From positions 1 to 5,782 of the forward strand of contig JAVEDQ010000305.1 of NCBI GenBank assembly GCA_030840885.1: a stretch of 5,782 nucleotides of DNA, in the 5' to 3' direction. This document shows positions 240 to 5,447 of the stretch, piece after piece. Every line of letters begins with the position of its first letter. Within the stretch, counting starts at the first letter, position 1. The position numbers were made by a program, and so were the translations under genes. Source of the stretch: Frankiaceae bacterium. GTDB taxonomy: Bacteria > Actinomycetota > Actinomycetes > Frankiales > Frankiaceae. A model generated the notes under the pieces. It saw only the letters and a list, made by a program, of their open reading frames with translations, was not told where the DNA came from and ran no database searches.

Positions 240-358
240 TGGTCCTCCTCAAGGCGGTCGACCACGGGACTCAGCAACCTGAGCCGATCGCTGTCGGCCG
301 GATCGTCGCCGTCGCGATCGCTTACCGCAAGCACCCGTAGCCGCACGTCACTCGGCAC
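218..358 (-). CDS. candidate 46-residue protein overlapping both neighbours
   Basis: Seen: between the stress-protein stop (348) and the CBS start (239) the minus strand keeps one frame open. Starting at GTG 358-356, which overlaps the upstream gene's last codons, it runs to TGA 220-218, inside the CBS gene. The product begins MPSDVRLRVLAVSDRDG and ends EEDQCVLQMS; it is acidic, with several Asp and Leu and no TM segment. AGGGG lies 9 nt before the GTG. Counted by hand, codon-position GC is about 80% (first), 40% (second) and 78% (third), the pattern of real coding sequence in a GC-rich genome and unlike random intergenic DNA. The overlaps at both ends would suit translational coupling through the operon. 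I do not recognise the family. Alternative: a chance open frame in a 108-bp spacer. Confidence 0.4.
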   Translation of the reverse strand: MPSDVRLRVLAVSDRDGDDPADSDRLRLLSPVVDRLEEDQCVLQMS

Positions 359-818
359 CGCTTTCAGCCCCTGAGGCAGCGGCACTATTCCGCACCACCG
401 CGACCGGACAATTCGCGTGTGCAACGCAGTGAGCGCTGACCGAGCCCAGCAGCATCCCGGTGAAGGCGCCATGACCGCGGCTGCCGACCACGAGCATCGA
501 GGCAGCTGCTGACTCTTCGAGCAGGACCTCTGCCGACCGCCCCTCCCGGACCACCTGTTCCAGGTGGATGTCGGGGAACTTCTCGAGTACCTCGTCGACC
601 ATCGCCGAGAGGGTCTGTGCCGAGTCCACCCGTAGATCCACCTCGATGGCCGGCGGGACGTTGCCGTACTCGATCGGCCAACGCCAGGCGATAACGGCAC
701 GCACCGGACATTTCGTCAGTTGCGCTTGCCGTACTGCCCAGTGCAGCGCTTCCCGGCTCGCCGGGGAACCGTCGACGCCGACGACCACCGGCTTCGCTGG
801 TGCGTCACTGAGCGTCAT
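348..818 (-). CDS. universal stress protein (UspA family), first copy
   Basis: Seen: 156 residues, a single UspA domain. The first strand and nucleotide-contact region is PVVVGVDGS (residues 10-18, D16). The ATP-binding signature G-x2-G-x9-G-S is intact at G112, G115, G125-S126 (GSRGHGAF...LLGSVS), followed by CPVAVVR. Start: ATG 818 has GAGG at 829-826 (7 nt spacing), and homology to the copy at 1199 begins right there. A longer frame from 929 would lie in the conserved leader. Known: Usp proteins with this signature are ATP-binding, usually dimeric cytoplasmic proteins induced by growth arrest, hypoxia or other stress. Neighbours: first gene of a minus-strand operon with the small ORF and the CBS gene; it is a close paralogue of, and divergent from, the gene at 1199. 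It is preceded by leader copy A, whose last hairpin pairs with its Shine-Dalgarno. Confidence 0.95.
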   Translation of the reverse strand: MTLSDAPAKPVVVGVDGSPASREALHWAVRQAQLTKCPVRAVIAWRWPIEYGNVPPAIEVDLRVDSAQTLSAMVDEVLEKFPDIHLEQVVREGRSAEVLLEESAAASMLVVGSRGHGAFTGMLLGSVSAHCVAHANCPVAVVRNSAAASGAESGAE

Positions 819-942
819 GAAGGTGCCTCGATGTGCGAGCTCACGGGAACGTCCGGCGACGAGCATCGCGCTCCGGGGTCGCGGCAGTTCGCGGCGCTCC
901 CGTTCCGGGCCTGGCTGAGACTCAGCCATTTGAACGTACGCC
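819..942 (-). promoter_or_regulatory. conserved structured leader, copy A (before first usp)
   Basis: Seen, reading the minus strand from 942: GGCGTACGTT, 6 nt, then GGCTG/CAGCC arms (927-913, 5-nt loop; the DNA is an 8+1+8 perfect palindrome at 912-928). Next come CCCG-GAA-CGGG (909-899), GCGAAC (892-887), hairpin GAGC/GCTC (873-861), CGCCGG, and CTCG-cacat-CGAG (839-827), where the last arm contains the Shine-Dalgarno GAGG. It ends directly at ATG 818, 124 nt from its first base. The same ordered blocks recur at 975, 4814 and 4855. TACGTT fits the actinobacterial -10 form TANNNT, so transcription may start just before the first hairpin; this is inference. No consensus -35 is visible. Confidence 0.8.
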
Positions 943-974
943 CCTGGTGACGTGCCCGCGCGCGCTGCCGCGAC
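943..974. promoter_or_regulatory. 32-bp spacer between head-to-head leaders A and B
   Basis: The leaders of the first and second stress-protein genes begin back to back here; their first ten bases form the inverted repeat AACGTACGCC (933-942) / GGCGTACGTT (975-984). Any upstream promoter elements for both directions must lie in or overlap this spacer. It is nearly all G/C with GGTGACGTG at 946-954. I see no TTGACA-like -35 hexamer at 17-18 bp from either TACGTT. Confidence 0.4.
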
Positions 975-1096
975 GGCGTACGTTGCAGAAGCTGAATACT
1001 CAGCCGGTCCGGGCCGGGGTTGCTGCGAACAGCTGCACCCTCCTGAGCGTCACGCTCACCGTCGGACGCTCTCGGTGCCCTCCTTCGAGGAACCCG
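975..1096 (+). promoter_or_regulatory. conserved structured leader, copy B (upstream of second usp)
   Basis: Seen: GGCGTACGTT (975-984), 6 nt, GCTGA-atac-TCAGC (991-1004), CGG..CGGGG, GCGAAC (1030s), hairpin GAGCG-tca-CGCTC (1045-1057; palindrome 1044-1058), CGTCGG, CGGTG, and CCTC-cttc-GAGG (1079-1090). Order and spacing match the other three copies, including a Shine-Dalgarno-like GAGG at 1087-1090. Unlike them, no ATG, GTG or TTG follows at the expected place (about 1097-1099). The gene served, if any, starts at 1199 with its own ribosome binding site, so this copy has a 224-nt distance instead of 122-124. It may act as promoter plus leader with an extended tail, or it may have lost its original reading frame. 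Confidence 0.75.
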
Positions 1097-1198
1097 CCTT
1101 CGCCTCGCTTCGCCGACGCCACCTGCGCCCGCTCCTCCGCTGCATCGCCGCTCGATGGCGGTTCACCCAGCACGAGAGTCCCCCCAGAAGGAGTTCTG
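1097..1198 (+). other. 102-nt untranslated stretch between leader B and second usp
   Basis: No open frame with a credible start or ribosome site was found here on either strand. It is C-rich with CTTCGC-like short repeats near 1098-1115. It ends with AGAAGGAG (1186-1193), the Shine-Dalgarno of the downstream gene. AGTCCCC at 1177-1183 resembles one half of a DosR box, but the other half is absent. Confidence 0.5.
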
Positions 1199-1651
1199 AT
1201 GGACAGCACAGCAACGACAACACGCCCTGTCGTCGTCGGCGTCGACGGCTCCCCCGGCAGCGCGAAAGCGCTGGCCTGGGGAGCACGGCAAGCTCGGCTG
1301 ACTCACGCACCACTCCACGCGGTCATCGCCTGGGCTTGGCCCGACATGTACGGCGTCGGCTTCGGCGGGATGCCGTACGAGATGGATCTGGCAGGCGATG
1401 CCGGCGTCGTTCTCAAGCAGATGGTGGCCGACCTGGGTGACGACGCGCCACCCGACGGGGTCCAGGCCCTGGTCTTCCAAGGCCATCCGGCACAGGTCCT
1501 GCTGCAGCAGGCCGAGAACGCGTCACTCCTCGTCGTCGGTAGCCGGGGACACGGGGCGTTCAGCGGCATGTTGCTCGGCTCCGTCAGCCAGCACTGCGTC
1601 AGCAACGCCGGCGGCCCGGTCGTCGTCGTTCGGGCCGAAGAAGCCGGCTGA
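1199..1651 (+). CDS. universal stress protein (UspA family), second copy
   Basis: Seen: 150 residues, a single UspA domain closely related to the product of the gene at 348-818: RPVVVGVDGSPGSAKALAW at residues 9-27, shared AVIAW.WP, and GSRGHGAFSGMLLGSVS. The ATP signature is complete (G114, G117, G127-S128). The usual CPVVVV end strand here reads GGPVVVV (138-144), so the Cys is missing. Start: ATG 1199 has AGAAGGAG at 1186-1193, 5 nt away. The frame is open far upstream, but that part is low-complexity Arg/Pro/Ser and crosses leader B, so it is not coding. Neighbours: first of three same-strand genes, 18 bp before the third usp. The divergent pair with the gene at 818 suggests an old duplication with shared regulation. 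Expected cytoplasmic, ATP-binding stress role. Confidence 0.95.
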   Translation: MDSTATTTRPVVVGVDGSPGSAKALAWGARQARLTHAPLHAVIAWAWPDMYGVGFGGMPYEMDLAGDAGVVLKQMVADLGDDAPPDGVQALVFQGHPAQVLLQQAENASLLVVGSRGHGAFSGMLLGSVSQHCVSNAGGPVVVVRAEEAG

Positions 1652-1669
1652 TCGCTGAGGGGTACCGGA

Positions 1670-2161
1670 ATGACCGAGATAGCGCAGCAGGCCGCCGCTC
1701 CTGCAGTCCCCGCCGCCGCCCGGCCGGCCCCGGTCGTGGTGGGTATCGACGGGTCGGCCGGAGCTCATGCCGCGCTGCTCTGGGCGGCGGACGAGGCCCG
1801 GCTGCGCGCAGTGCCGCTGGAGATCGTGCGCACCTGGCCGCTGGACCCACCGGCAGCCCACATTCCGGCCGCGGACTTGGCGGCCGTCGACGAGCGGGCG
1901 CGCCACGTCGAGGTCGAGGTCGAGGTGGAATCCGACAGCGTGCGCGGGGGCGATCTCGAGATCAGCCAGCTGGTCTGTCAGGGGTTCGCGCAGGACGTTC
2001 TCGTTGCTGCCTCGATGGCTGCCGACCTGCTGGTGGTCGGCAGCCGCGGTCGGGGCGCCGTGCGCACCCTGCTGCTCGGCAGCGTCAGCGCCCACGTCGC
2101 CTCCCACGCCCACTGCCCCGTCGTCGTGGTGCCGCACCCGGTGCCACCCGAGACGAACTAA
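1670..2161 (+). CDS. universal stress protein (UspA family), third, divergent copy
   Basis: Seen: 163 residues. An Ala/Pro-rich N-terminal tail (about residues 5-21) precedes PVVVGIDGSAGA (D27). The ATP signature is intact at G124, G127, G137-S138 (GSRGRGAVRTLLLGSVS), ending CPVVVV plus a Pro-rich tail. In the linker between the halves, four Val-Glu repeats occupy residues 80-87, encoded by a short GAGGTC tandem repeat at 1907-1930. Start: ATG 1670 with GAGGGG at 1657-1662, 7 nt spacing. It is less like the other two Usp proteins than they are like each other (no GHGAF). Neighbours: 18 bp after the second usp and 23 bp before the oxidase-like gene, so surely one operon. Known role: ATP-binding stress protein, possibly forming homo- or heterodimers with its neighbour. 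Confidence 0.95.
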   Translation: MTEIAQQAAAPAVPAAARPAPVVVGIDGSAGAHAALLWAADEARLRAVPLEIVRTWPLDPPAAHIPAADLAAVDERARHVEVEVEVESDSVRGGDLEISQLVCQGFAQDVLVAASMAADLLVVGSRGRGAVRTLLLGSVSAHVASHAHCPVVVVPHPVPPETN

Positions 2162-2184
2162 GCCCTGACCGAAGGAGCCCTGCC

Positions 2185-2817
2185 ATGACCGTTCGGCAAC
2201 AGTTCTCGCCGTGGACGCTGCTGCGTTCCCTCGACCCGACCGCTCGATCCGCCATCGCCAACGCGCGGCTCGCCGCCGCCGAGATCGGACGGTCCGTGGA
2301 GGAACGTCACGCTTTGATGGCAAGCCTGGACCACGCGGACGGCGAGGTCGTACCTCCGGGTCAGGAGGTAGCAGGGGATGTCAGCGGCGAACGCCATCTC
2401 GTCGCCCTGACAAGCAGTGAGTGCCGTCGTCTTCTCGCCACGCGCCGACTCGGCCGGCTGGCTTTCGTCAACCGGGCCGAGCAGCCGCTGATCCTTCCCG
2501 TGAACTACAGCATGGACGGCGGGGATGTCTTGATCGCCACCGGTCCGGGACCCAAGCTCCAGGCGGCCATCCGTCGCGATGTCGTGGCGTTCGAGGTCGA
2601 CGAGATCGATGAGGAGACCGGCCGAGGGTGGAGTGTCGTCGCCAGCGGTCGCGTCACGCGCGAGCCGCGGGCGAACGGGAACCTCCGCGAAGGCGACCGG
2701 ACCGGCCCCCACCCGTGGGCACCTGGTCCCCGTCTCGACGTCATACGGGTCTCCCCCTCCCGGCTCACCGGACGTTGGCTGACGGGGCCTCCCCTTGCAC
2801 CGGCGACCGACGCCTGA
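2185..2817 (+). CDS. pyridoxamine 5'-phosphate oxidase-like FMN-binding split-barrel protein
   Basis: Seen: 210 residues. Residues about 70-160 match the split-barrel family Pyridox_ox_2: LTSSECRRLLATRRLGRLAFVN, PLILPVNYSMDGGDVLIAT, KLQAAI, VVAFEVDEIDEETGRGWSVVASGRV. The C-terminus HPWAPGPRLDVIRVSPSRLTGRWL is also typical of actinobacterial members. Known: these proteins bind FMN or F420-like cofactors; most are uncharacterised and should not be assumed to make pyridoxal phosphate. Odd: about 65 residues precede the barrel, with a predicted helical ARSAIANARLAAAEIGRSVEERHAL stretch; the barrel usually starts near the N-terminus. Start ATG 2185 has GAAGGAG at 2170-2176, so the extension is probably translated. 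Third gene of the usp operon. Its TGA lies in the left arm of the terminator at 2808-2838. Confidence 0.88.
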   Translation: MTVRQQFSPWTLLRSLDPTARSAIANARLAAAEIGRSVEERHALMASLDHADGEVVPPGQEVAGDVSGERHLVALTSSECRRLLATRRLGRLAFVNRAEQPLILPVNYSMDGGDVLIATGPGPKLQAAIRRDVVAFEVDEIDEETGRGWSVVASGRVTREPRANGNLREGDRTGPHPWAPGPRLDVIRVSPSRLTGRWLTGPPLAPATDA

Positions 2818-2838
2818 CCGGGCGGCGGTCAGGCGTCG
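2808..2838. terminator. bidirectional hairpin terminator between convergent genes
   Basis: Seen: a perfect 13-bp stem, 2808-2820 with 2826-2838, and a 5-nt loop (ggcgg). No U tract on either side, as is common in GC-rich actinobacteria. The stem contains the TGA of the plus-strand oxidase-like gene (2815-2817) and the TGA of the minus-strand permease (2831-2829). The symmetry makes both proteins end in Asp-Ala-stop. Confidence 0.85.
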
Positions 2839-3665
2839 CGACGTCGGAAGAGCACCGCCGAGATGACCAGCAGGACGGCGACGACGGCGGTGAAGGTCAG
2901 CCCGCCGGCGAGCGGCGACAGATCGTTGCGGAACGCCTCGGGCACGCTCGGATCCACCTTGGTCGTGTACGCGACGAGTTGGCCGCCGGCGGTGAACGGC
3001 AGGAAGCGACCGGCCCCCGCCAGCGAATGCAGCGCATCCACCGACAGCAGCACCCGCAGGATCGGCTCGACGGCCACCGGCAGGACGAACAGCAGGCTGA
3101 CCGCGGCGGGGACGTTGCGCAGCAGCCAACCCAGGCCGAGCCCGATGAGCGAGAACAGCACGACGAGGATGACGGTGCCGCCGACGACCCGCGCGGTGCG
3201 GCCGTCCGCGAACCCGACCCCCGGCGCGAAGCGGCCTCCCCCGACGACCACGAGAACCACGGCGGACAGGGCGATGCAGAGCACGCCCACCGCCGCTGCC
3301 CACAGCGCCACCCCCACCAGCTTCGCCGAGGCCAGGGAGTTACGCCGGGGGACGCTGGTCAGCATCGGCAGGATGGTGCCGTGCCGGTAGTCGTGCCCGA
3401 ACGCGAACACCCCGATGAGGCCCACCAGCAGCGTGGTCATCTGCATCGCGGAGGACAGCACGAGAGCGAACGACGCCTGGTCCCCGAGGACGGCAGGGGA
3501 ACCTGCTCCGCGCGGGAGACCGAGACGAGCGGCCGTCGACGTCCCCGCCGTCAGCGTGAAGGCGACCGCCAACATCGTCGTGACGACCAGGGACACGCCG
3601 CTGAGCCACCATGTCGAGCGCAGCGTCCGCAGCCGGATCCACTCCTGGACCAGGGCGCCCCTCAT
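2829..3665 (-). CDS. ABC-2 type transporter permease
   Basis: Seen: 278 residues with six hydrophobic segments at about 19-39, 67-90, 114-142, 159-182, 185-207 and 250-273, the usual count for an ABC-2 (export-type) permease. Between segments 2 and 3 is FGHDYRHGTI (89-98), the (E/D)YRHGT motif conserved in this family's cytoplasmic coupling region. The N-terminus MRGALVQEWIRLRTLRSTWW is a typical amphipathic start. ATG 3665 overlaps the ATPase stop by 4 bp (ATGA), so translation is coupled. Known: such permeases pair as dimers with a BcrA/DrrA-like ATPase to export lipids, peptides or antibiotics, or to serve resistance. The substrate cannot be read from sequence. Ends in the shared terminator. 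The long antisense frames over this gene are GC-bias shadows. Confidence 0.93.
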   Translation of the reverse strand: MRGALVQEWIRLRTLRSTWWLSGVSLVVTTMLAVAFTLTAGTSTAARLGLPRGAGSPAVLGDQASFALVLSSAMQMTTLLVGLIGVFAFGHDYRHGTILPMLTSVPRRNSLASAKLVGVALWAAAVGVLCIALSAVVLVVVGGGRFAPGVGFADGRTARVVGGTVILVVLFSLIGLGLGWLLRNVPAAVSLLFVLPVAVEPILRVLLSVDALHSLAGAGRFLPFTAGGQLVAYTTKVDPSVPEAFRNDLSPLAGGLTFTAVVAVLLVISAVLFRRRDA

Positions 3666-4690
3666 GCCGCACTCAGATCGGACGTCGTCCGGATGGGGTG
3701 CTCCTGCGCGTCGGCGGTGGCCTCGAGGAACGCCTCCTCCAGTGACGCGACGCGGGTTGCGAGCTCATGGAGCACGATCCCCGCGCCGGCGGCGACATCT
3801 CCGATCTGCGCCTGGTCGAGTCCCGTGACCACGAACGCATCACCGTGGGGCGACTGCACCGTGGCCCCGCGGTCGATCAGCAGTCGACGCAGTTGCTCGC
3901 TCTGCGGACTCTGAACGCTGACGCTCTTCAGTGACCACCGGGACTCGAACTCGTCAGTCGGCAGATCACTGATCAAGCGGCCCCGTCCGATGACGACGAG
4001 GTGGTCGGCCATCTGTGCCATCTCCGCGAGCTGATGGCTGGAGACGAGCACGGTGCGTCCCGATTCCGCGAAGGACTGCAGGAAGCTGCGGAGCCAGTTG
4101 ATGCCCTGCGGATCGAGTCCGTTCGCCGGTTCGTCCAGGATCAGCACCCGAGGGTCGCCCAGCAGCGCAACCGCAAGACCCAAGCGCTGACTCATGCCCA
4201 GCGAGAAGCTCTTCGGTCCCTTGCCCGCGACCGACGCAAGGCCGACGAGTTCGAGCACCTCGTCGACGCGTCGGTCGGAGATGCGGCTGGGGGCGGCCAA
4301 CATCCGTAGGTGGTTGCGCGCGCTGCGCGTCGGGTGGAACGCCTTGGCCTCCAGCAGCGCCCCGACCTCCCTGGCTGGATCGCGGAGCTCCCGATAGGGC
4401 ACTCCGTCGAAGGTCGTGCGGCCGCCACCGCCGTCCAGCCCGAGCATGAGGCGCATCGCGGTGGACTTGCCGGCCCCGTTGGGGCCGAGGAAGCCGGTGA
4501 CCTGACCCGGGTGGACCTCGAACGTGAGGTCATCGACGGCGAGCTTCTTGCCGAACCGCTTGGTGAGACCGACCGCCTTGATGAGGCACTTGTCGGCTGA
4601 TGCGCCGGCGTCACCGCGTCCACGGCGCAGTGGTTTGACGGCCTGCGATGGGTCCGAGGGCAGCGCCTCGAGGACGTTGTCTGTCGACAT
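3662..4690 (-). CDS. ABC transporter ATP-binding protein (BcrA/DrrA-like)
   Basis: Seen: 342 residues. The nucleotide-binding domain runs from about 36 to 245: Walker A GPNGAGKST (69-77), signature variant SLGMSQR (163-169), Walker B VLILDEP with catalytic E187, D-loop NGLD, and H-loop His at 219 (VSSHQ). The stretch GALLEAKAFHP (110-120) in place of a clear Q-loop Gln, and the LGM signature, are typical of the bacitracin/daunorubicin-type exporters. Residues about 245-330 form the extra C-terminal domain found in this subfamily. About 33 polar residues precede the domain, which is longer than usual; there is no later ATG, and ATG 4690 has GGAG at 4700-4697 with 6 nt spacing, so I keep it. 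First gene of a two-gene operon with the permease. Its leader (copy C) has the last hairpin CTCC/GGAG covering this ribosome site. Confidence 0.94.
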   Translation of the reverse strand: MSTDNVLEALPSDPSQAVKPLRRGRGDAGASADKCLIKAVGLTKRFGKKLAVDDLTFEVHPGQVTGFLGPNGAGKSTAMRLMLGLDGGGGRTTFDGVPYRELRDPAREVGALLEAKAFHPTRSARNHLRMLAAPSRISDRRVDEVLELVGLASVAGKGPKSFSLGMSQRLGLAVALLGDPRVLILDEPANGLDPQGINWLRSFLQSFAESGRTVLVSSHQLAEMAQMADHLVVIGRGRLISDLPTDEFESRWSLKSVSVQSPQSEQLRRLLIDRGATVQSPHGDAFVVTGLDQAQIGDVAAGAGIVLHELATRVASLEEAFLEATADAQEHPIRTTSDLSAA

Positions 4691-4814
4691 GGGTGGCTCC
4701 GGAGGGAGTTCACCGTGACACCCGGCGGCGAGCGAAGGTCACTCGAGGGCACGCGGCAGAGTTCGCGGTGCGCCCCATCCGGGTCGGCTGGTCTCAGCCC
4801 CTACAACCTACGCC
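4691..4814 (-). promoter_or_regulatory. conserved structured leader, copy C (before ABC operon)
   Basis: Seen on the minus strand from 4814: GGCGTAGGTT, 6 nt, GGCTG/CAGCC arms (4799-4786; loop 4 nt), CCCGGA.GGGG, GCGAAC, hairpin GAGTG-accTT-CGCTC (4744-4730, one G-T pair), CGCCGG, CGGTGA, and CTCC-ctcc-GGAG (4708-4697), with GGAG being the Shine-Dalgarno. Its first base is 124 nt before the ATG, exactly as in copy A. TAGGTT fits a TANNNT -10 element. The arms of the last two hairpins differ in sequence from copy A but still pair, which favours an RNA structure over a plain DNA repeat. Confidence 0.8.
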
Positions 4815-4854
4815 GATCGAGCGACGGCTTCTGCCGACGGCGACGGCTGGACCC
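4815..4854. promoter_or_regulatory. 40-bp spacer between head-to-head leaders C and D
   Basis: Same arrangement as at 943-974: two leaders start back to back, so promoter contacts for both directions must lie here. The spacer holds several GACGGC repeats (4823-4847) but no recognisable -35 hexamer and no obvious sequence shared with the other spacer. Confidence 0.35.
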
Positions 4855-4976
4855 GGCGTAACGTGGCGGTCGCTGAGCGATCAGCCAGTTCGGAGCGGGG
4901 ACGCCGCGATTCGGTCGTGTCCTCGAGTGCCACACGGCTCCCGCCGAACACCTCGGTGACCTTCCGAAGGATCACC
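4855..4976 (+). promoter_or_regulatory. conserved structured leader, copy D (before TM protein)
   Basis: Seen: GGCGTAACGT (4855-4864), 7 nt, GCTGA-gcga-TCAGC (4872-4885, a GNRA-type loop if RNA), TTCGGAGCGGGG, GCGA (4906-4909), GAGT/GCTC arms (4925-4928 with 4937-4940), CGCCGA, CGGTGA, and CCTT-ccg-AAGG (4960-4970) overlapping the Shine-Dalgarno GAAGGA (4966-4971). Its first base is 122 nt before ATG 4977. TAACGT also fits TANNNT. Of the four copies this is the most diverged in the middle block (GCGATT instead of GCGAAC). Confidence 0.75.
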
Positions 4977-5447
4977 ATGAACAATCGCACTCCTGCTACT
5001 CCTGCCCCCAGGAACGGCGCTCTCGGGACTGCCCGGACTGTCGCTCTCCCCGAGCCCCAACAGATCGACGACGATGCCGTCTCGCCTGCCGAGGCGTCGG
5101 TCAGCCTGGTCCGCTCCAAGAGCGGACGTCCGCTGATGATGGTGTGGCGCGAGGACGGGCAACTGCGCACACGCAGGGTCTTCGACGTCGCCGGCCTGGT
5201 GGTCGCCGCCCCGCTGGCTGTCGGGGCGCTGGCGCTGATCCGTTCGCTCACCGCCCGGCTCACGCCGGTGCGCACGAGGATCGACATGGGGCCCGGCGGA
5301 TGGGTCAGCTTCAAGGACCATCCCGCGGCGAACGGTCCCCGTCGCGTCGTCGGACTTCGTCGCGGACCCGCACCCCACAGCCCCGGTCGATCACGTGACG
5401 GACGCCCACGGTGGGCTCGCCTGTTGAAGGCCCAGCCCTTCAGCTGA
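4977..5447 (+). CDS. unrecognised single-TM protein
   Basis: Seen: 156 residues. A Thr/Pro/Ala-rich polar N-terminus (1-45) is followed by a compact basic segment SGRPLMMVWREDGQLRTRRVF. Then comes one hydrophobic stretch at about 70-88 (DVAGLVVAAPLAVGALALI), a short MGPGGWVSFKDHP motif at 104-116, and a very basic Arg/Pro tail ending RWARLLKAQPFS. No signal peptidase site is obvious; one TM helix with basic flanks is likely. I do not recognise a functional family, although the GPGGWVSFK motif looks conserved-domain-like. Start: ATG 4977 with GAAGGA at 4966-4971 (5 nt spacing); the longer frame from 4863 would read through leader D. Expressed alone, divergent from the ABC operon, under leader D. 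It shares its terminator region with the converging CBS gene. Confidence 0.8.
   Translation: MNNRTPATPAPRNGALGTARTVALPEPQQIDDDAVSPAEASVSLVRSKSGRPLMMVWREDGQLRTRRVFDVAGLVVAAPLAVGALALIRSLTARLTPVRTRIDMGPGGWVSFKDHPAANGPRRVVGLRRGPAPHSPGRSRDGRPRWARLLKAQPFS

Follow-up and report, generated by a model that had tools for sequence, protein, structure and literature searches.

Why should transcription units with largely unrelated genes, in a 5,782-nucleotide (nt) contig of a Frankiaceae bacterium, all be preceded by the same sequence? The window, by which we mean the whole of this contig (JAVEDQ010000305.1 of assembly GCA_030840885.1; G000:C540 in our numbering), belongs to a genome that is 63% complete and split into 629 contigs. 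Inspection of the window confirmed four copies of the repeat where a preliminary description had placed them, A (942-819) and C (4814-4691) on the minus strand and B (975-1096) and D (4855-4976) on the plus strand. A degenerate pattern derived from these copies had four matches in the window and none in 200 dinucleotide shuffles, which measures rarity rather than independence, since the pattern was fitted to A-D. The four are copies of one module, comprising a likely promoter -10 box, a leader of ~105 nt and, in A, C and D, a start codon. The leader is a new class of structured leader RNA. With a probability that we put at roughly 0.4, this three-way-junction leader supplies the RNA partner so far missing for the GAF-ANTAR proteins of actinobacteria. 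They would then recognize it without a hexaloop, and the signal that their GAF domain senses would be coupled to the translation of a stress regulon in Rhodococcus, a second genus (g10) and the window's family.

Covariance models were built from the four window copies (R1), from 34 copies (R2) and from 44 copies (R3), and stricter filters were applied in the large searches. In the 35 family genomes, R1 gave matches outside the window from an E value of 3e-11, often clustered in twos or threes, and R2 matched 22 of the 35 at E<=0.01, the window genome included. With R2, 29 of 393 genomes of the class were matched, seven of them outside the family; R3 found copies in 45 of 148 g10 genomes (E<=0.001; up to six per genome) and, phylum-wide, in two of 396 genomes, one of which is the window's own. 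On plasmid NZ_CP046101.1 of Rhodococcus sp. AQ5-07, two copies (L168:8659-8792 and 10609-10740), neither of them in the R3 training set, flank genes annotated as 'GAF and ANTAR' and 'ANTAR', and an annotated slipin gene starts ~140 nt behind the first copy. The proposal that a covariance model would recover further copies in relatives was thus borne out in the family, the class and g10. None of the 4227 families of Rfam 15 gave a match overlapping a copy at E<=1, either in the window or in seven copy-bearing loci, so that by this comparison the leader belongs to none of the families described there; nor was a description of it found in the literature searched. Before later alignments, three of 37 matches were dropped (L084:2912 and L085:7176, both adjoining ABC genes, and L082:10313), as were L051:533 and the weak L054, L055 and L056 (26.6-30.5 bits), which did not reappear with R2, and L134:14582 (R2, E 0.15). 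A strict sequence pattern recovered only the four window copies in the 35 family genomes; 31 scattered contig sites elsewhere were judged to be chance matches (R1 at most 20.9 bits).

The predicted fold of the leader consists of an upstream hairpin, P1, a helix, P2, at the base of a three-way junction whose other two arms are P3 and P4, and a hairpin, P5, over the ribosome site. The hairpins drawn in the preliminary description left out P3 and P2, the latter being the key helix. Its CGG...GGG block and its CGYCGR are conserved, as it said, but they hold both arms of long-range P2, which it missed; its CGGTG, likewise a conserved block, is actually the 5' arm of P5, in which GGTG pairs with CACC around the ribosome site. 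P2 has six pairs and is common to the four copies, which differ in both of its arms: GCCCGG/CCGGAC in A (one mismatch), GUCCGG/UCGGAC in B, ACCCGG/CCGGGU in C and GUUCGG/CCGAAC in D. Copy C, folded alone, adopts P1 and P2 enclosing P3 and P4 as its minimum free energy (MFE) structure, and several g10 copies do likewise. Among the MFE folds of 53 copies, P1 appears in 47, P2 in 42 and P4 in 40, and the mean pair probability of P2 is 0.75, compared with 0.007 when the helix is slid.

Pairing was counted on alignments made by MAFFT from sequence only (alignment A9 holds 36 copies that we selected from 52, and A12 holds 25 selected copies, mostly of the second type). Across 36 copies, P1, P2 and P4 together were paired in 96.4% of cells, versus at most 44.9% when slid, and contained 38 double-change cells versus 10.9 ± 2.4 after shuffling (0/500). 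A fuller structure was paired in 91.1% of cells across 34 copies. A tree-aware, helix-wise test, written and chosen after a family-wise G-test had come out negative, covered 76 rows (73 distinct copies) and redistributed the substitutions on the tree in 300 null runs. P2 covaried, with 51 double-change cells versus 10.8 ± 8.0 on the null (0/300), and one of its pairs occurs as CG 35 times, UA 28 times and UG 10 times. P1 had 14 such cells versus 3.2 (8/300) and P4 14 versus 4.6 (17/300), while four control helices showed no excess. In P2, compensatory changes therefore go beyond what phylogeny yields, as expected of a structured RNA, and for this stem the pairing support that had been sought was found. 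Compensatory changes in P2, P1 and P4 also argue against reading the repeat as DNA, a control element made of promoter and operator that does not act as RNA. Such an element would account for the -10-like box being the most constant part and for the ordinary folding energies of single copies (the window leaders A-D are not unusually stable compared with shuffles, with z values of 0.01, -0.58, -0.19 and -1.42). The P3 region, however, is stabler than its own shuffles (mean z -1.93 over 75 rows, 58 of them below -1), and the start codon is fixed at the leader end; we consider a DNA element very improbable. Further copies, a covarying stem and the fixed site at start codons uphold the original proposal of a conserved cis-regulatory leader RNA outside Rfam, and that the leader is a real structured RNA seems to us very probable.

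TANNNT, 6-8 nt upstream of P1, is present in 48 of 53 copies and CANNNT in four, with L147 having neither; the count took the first matching site in a nine-base range, and some of the fits arise by chance. The GGCGTA block, from which the leader had originally been drawn, is conserved but is better read as the promoter -10, 6-7 nt ahead of the RNA, than as part of it, and the RNA itself likely begins ~15 nt later. By eye, -35 boxes resembling TTGACA or GTCGACA can be seen in subfamily 2 and in the L071/L073 copies. The leaders of A, C and D end at an ATG (818, 4690 and 4977), as had been noted. Over all copies, 71 of 74 rows have a start codon no further than 4 nt from the model end (one locus is entered twice), the misses being window copy B, L072:4661 and L141. 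Alignment A5 had been trimmed near start codons, which favours this fit for training copies; all 20 rows absent from the training sets of both R2 and R3 fit as well. Promoter, leader and site of initiation are likely united in a single module. Copy B (window:990-1098) has a full leader, with GAGG within P5, yet no start codon at the leader end. At L072:4659-4982, a tandem pair of leaders stands behind a GAF-ANTAR gene, and the first of the pair does not end at a start codon.

GAF-ANTAR genes adjoin the leader at many of the loci read. ANTAR domains, 2-15 per leader genome, were present in 27 of 27 genomes searched and in the window genome. In 17 of the 27 leader genomes (G001, 4, 8, 10, 11, 12, 13, 15, 19, 25, 28, 29, 30, 33, 53, 208 and 347), at most 3 kb separates an ANTAR gene from an R1 or R2 copy, where 0.24 would be expected. 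No ANTAR gene within 3 kb was found among the matches listed for G002, 6, 7, 9, 27, 31, 32, 223, 231 and 271; G002 and G027 each have one further ANTAR domain beyond those listed, and G231 becomes the eighteenth if the R3 copy C2:823541 is counted. Within the family, an ortholog of the linked GAF-ANTAR protein (E<=1e-40) occurs in 12 of 34 genomes, all of them leader-bearing, and in none of the 13 without a leader (Fisher p 5e-4, kinship ignored). In g10, 51 of 148 genomes have the ortholog, including 41 of the 45 leader genomes (Fisher p = 2e-22, kinship again ignored), and it is found within 3 kb of 35 of the 83 copies, where 0.14 would be expected at an assumed genome size of 6 Mb. By our tally, all 21 g10 genomes with an ortholog match at E<=1e-80 are leader-bearing. 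The window genome has 13 ANTAR matches and one ortholog (62% identity, contig C482). It also carries a fifth copy of the leader (L147:8029-8155; 37.5 bits, E 2e-5; P2 arms GGUCGA/UCGACC), which lies between two divergent GAF-ANTAR genes, ending at the ATG of the second and pointing away from the ortholog gene. Several leader clusters contain a second protein of ~200 amino acids (aa) without a GAF domain (L067:8810-9496, L168:9946-10605, L140:2256-2852 and L136:13971-14564); ANTAR was detected in two of these four (6e-7 and 3e-6), and no family in the other two.

This linkage and co-occurrence suggest that GAF-ANTAR proteins may be the reader of the leader, binding it to control translation, to which we give somewhat better than even odds. 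Transcription would start at P1, and P5 would mask the ribosome site. Signal sensing by the GAF domain could then alter ANTAR binding to the leader, and the changed binding would open or lock P5 and so set translation of the gene behind. Much of this anatomy would also suit a ligand-binding riboswitch, in which the three-way junction senses a stress-related metabolite and the GAF-ANTAR genes merely belong to the same regulon. In some riboswitches a conserved junction precedes a hairpin over the ribosome site, and the predicted fold of the leader shows both features. The leader genomes that lack a linked GAF-ANTAR ortholog fit such a riboswitch, as does L147, where a GAF-ANTAR gene itself follows a leader. 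We nevertheless think it unlikely: co-occurrence and adjacency with one type of regulator exceed chance, no Rfam riboswitch matched the window or the seven loci, the genes behind the copies have no pathway in common from which a ligand could be guessed, and the leader, unlike riboswitches, is linked to genes for RNA-binding proteins. Less likely again is that another factor (an RNA-binding protein, a small RNA or temperature) acts on the leader, while the ANTAR genes are carried along in a mobile stress cluster. The Rhodococcus clusters are indeed plasmid-borne and gather stress genes, and the second, GAF-less ANTAR-like protein is often present, but no other gene is equally regular beside the leader at the loci read.

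In the sections cited, ANTAR-target RNAs are described as tandem hairpins with A1/G4 hexaloops (PMC3369936, PMC3369931, PMC8164766). Like the leader, the amiE, nasF and eut leaders and the actinobacterial set of Mehta and Ramesh 2021 (PMC8164766) accompany ANTAR proteins, and in actinobacteria such RNAs often lie over the ribosome site or start codon, as is the case here by the start-codon count given above, with an ANTAR protein in the same genome. Of the 52 copies examined, 29 contain a single A1/G4 hexaloop hairpin, versus 16.5 in simple shuffles, and in 15 it stands at one and the same site between P4 and P2; the P1 loop of window copy D reads AGCGAU. A tandem A1/G4 pair, by contrast, was found in one of 52 copies versus 1.3 in shuffles, the motif occupies the P1 loop in two of 76 rows and the P4 loop in none, and the hairpin between P4 and P2 is absent from all four window copies, for which reason we dropped it as a general answer. 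Because the hexaloop pair is absent, we do not file the leader, with its P1 hairpin and its three-way junction without a loop pair, under the known ANTAR-target RNAs, and membership of that family has very little probability in our estimate. The surplus of single A1/G4 hexaloops may leave room for an unusual form of ANTAR target. The leader, if it is bound by GAF-ANTAR proteins, would resemble the PPE1-5' RNA of Mycobacterium tuberculosis, whose hairpins near the start codon bind the ANTAR-domain regulator PdtaR; as described in the part of that report cited, a receiver-ANTAR protein is there titrated by one RNA (PMC8131098), whereas here GAF-ANTAR genes stand beside a repeated leader of many genes.

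Several results weigh against recognition of a leader so folded by GAF-ANTAR proteins. On the genomic side, nine leader genomes of the family and four of g10 have no ortholog of the linked protein, ten g10 genomes have the ortholog and no leader match, the Fisher p values ignore the tree, and the window's own 5.8-kb contig has no ANTAR gene. As to the RNA, the leader lacks the canonical ANTAR hexaloop pair, which in 52 copies is no commoner than in shuffles. P5 pairs in 91% of cells without covariation (5 double-change cells versus 5.6; 139/300), and the stricter family-wise G-test, with simulated alignments, passed no pair. RNAalifold on A12 returned P1 and P3, but in its fold the 3' arm of P2 pairs with the CGG just behind it, and P2 is missing from the MFE folds of five of six subfamily-2 copies (L067:14206, L068:10985, L069:660, L069:7713 and L080:11075). 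Moreover, further copies were found by models that contain P2, which biases them toward pairing there.

If GAF-ANTAR proteins do read the leader, the stress regulon would comprise Usp, SpoIIE, STAS, phosphoketolase and glycosyltransferase genes. As of 2012, no GAF-domain ANTAR protein had been characterized, according to the section cited (PMC3369931), and the words GAF, Frankia and stress are absent from the main text of the 2021 survey of actinobacterial ANTAR RNAs (PMC8164766). A defined fold, a fixed start codon and adjoining GAF-ANTAR genes make the leader a candidate RNA target that is directly testable, and its copies list, species by species, the genes such a signal would control.

The features of the window are collected in Table 1. 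CBS proteins are encoded at both window ends. The Usp gene of B begins ~100 nt past the leader end. Downstream genes had been called unrelated, which holds between A/B, C and D but not between A and B: their Usp genes are related, because a 129-nt inverted repeat, 72% complementary, lies within them (window:663-791/1226-1354). The A/B pair of copies may stem from a single duplication.

Table 1. Copies of the leader module and genes in the window
Feature	Position	Strand	Basis
Copy A, likely -10 box TACGTT	933..938	-	sequence
Copy A, leader RNA (putative start)	819..927	-	R2, 88.2 bits (copy in training sets of both R2 and R3)
Copy A, predicted stems	P1 hairpin from 926 down; P2 arms 910-905 and 856-851 (one mismatch); P5 ~845-822
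Copy B, likely -10 box TACGTT	979..984	+	sequence
Copy B, leader RNA (putative start)	990..1098	+	R2, 84.9 bits
Copy B, predicted stems	P1 991-1004; P2 arms 1007-1012 and 1062-1067; P4 1044-1058
Copy C, likely -10 box TAGGTT	4805..4810	-	sequence
Copy C, leader RNA (putative start)	4691..4799	-	R2, 88.3 bits
Copy C, predicted stems	P1 from 4798; P2 arms 4784-4779 and 4725-4720; P5 4714-4691
Copy D, likely -10 box TAACGT	4859..4864	+	sequence
Copy D, leader RNA (putative start)	4871..4976	+	R2, 79 bits
Copy D, predicted stems	P1 4872-4885; P2 arms 4888-4893 and 4944-4949; P5 4955-4976 (GGTGA/TCACC)
Usp gene behind A	348..818	-	Pfam Usp, 6e-28
Usp gene behind B, first in series	1199..1651	+	Pfam
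Second Usp gene behind B	1670-2161	+	Pfam
Pyridox_ox_2 gene, third in series behind B	2185-2817	+	Pfam
ABC transporter ATPase gene behind C	3662..4690	-	Pfam, NCBIfam
278-aa protein without family, after the ABC ATPase gene behind C	2829-3665	-	Pfam, NCBIfam
156-aa protein behind D, without Pfam or NCBIfam family	4977..5447	+	Pfam, NCBIfam searches

Outside the window, the genes behind or near copies encode a 77-aa protein without family and GAF-SpoIIE, STAS, STAS-DUF4332, nitroreductase-like, phosphoketolase, S30AE-like, alpha/beta hydrolase, fatty-acid desaturase and GT4 glycosyltransferase proteins. In the window's family, the usual gene behind the leader encodes a protein of 75-90 aa with the core LGSxYGxxxGK..A (L074:4877-5128, L069:4235-4468, L082:7315-7548 and others); the one tested had no Pfam or NCBIfam match. 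A subfamily with a TATGCT-like -10 and a GTCGACA-like -35 (L067:14206-14333, L067:6785-6913, L069:660-788, L080:11075-11203 and kin) precedes STAS and STAS-DUF4332 genes whose starts lie further downstream, and has a GTG at the usual start site, perhaps opening a short reading frame. In g10 (L152-L157, L159-L166), the gene behind the leader is by eye a glycosyltransferase gene with a TTG start directly at the leader end; GT4 families were confirmed for L153, L135 and L138 only.

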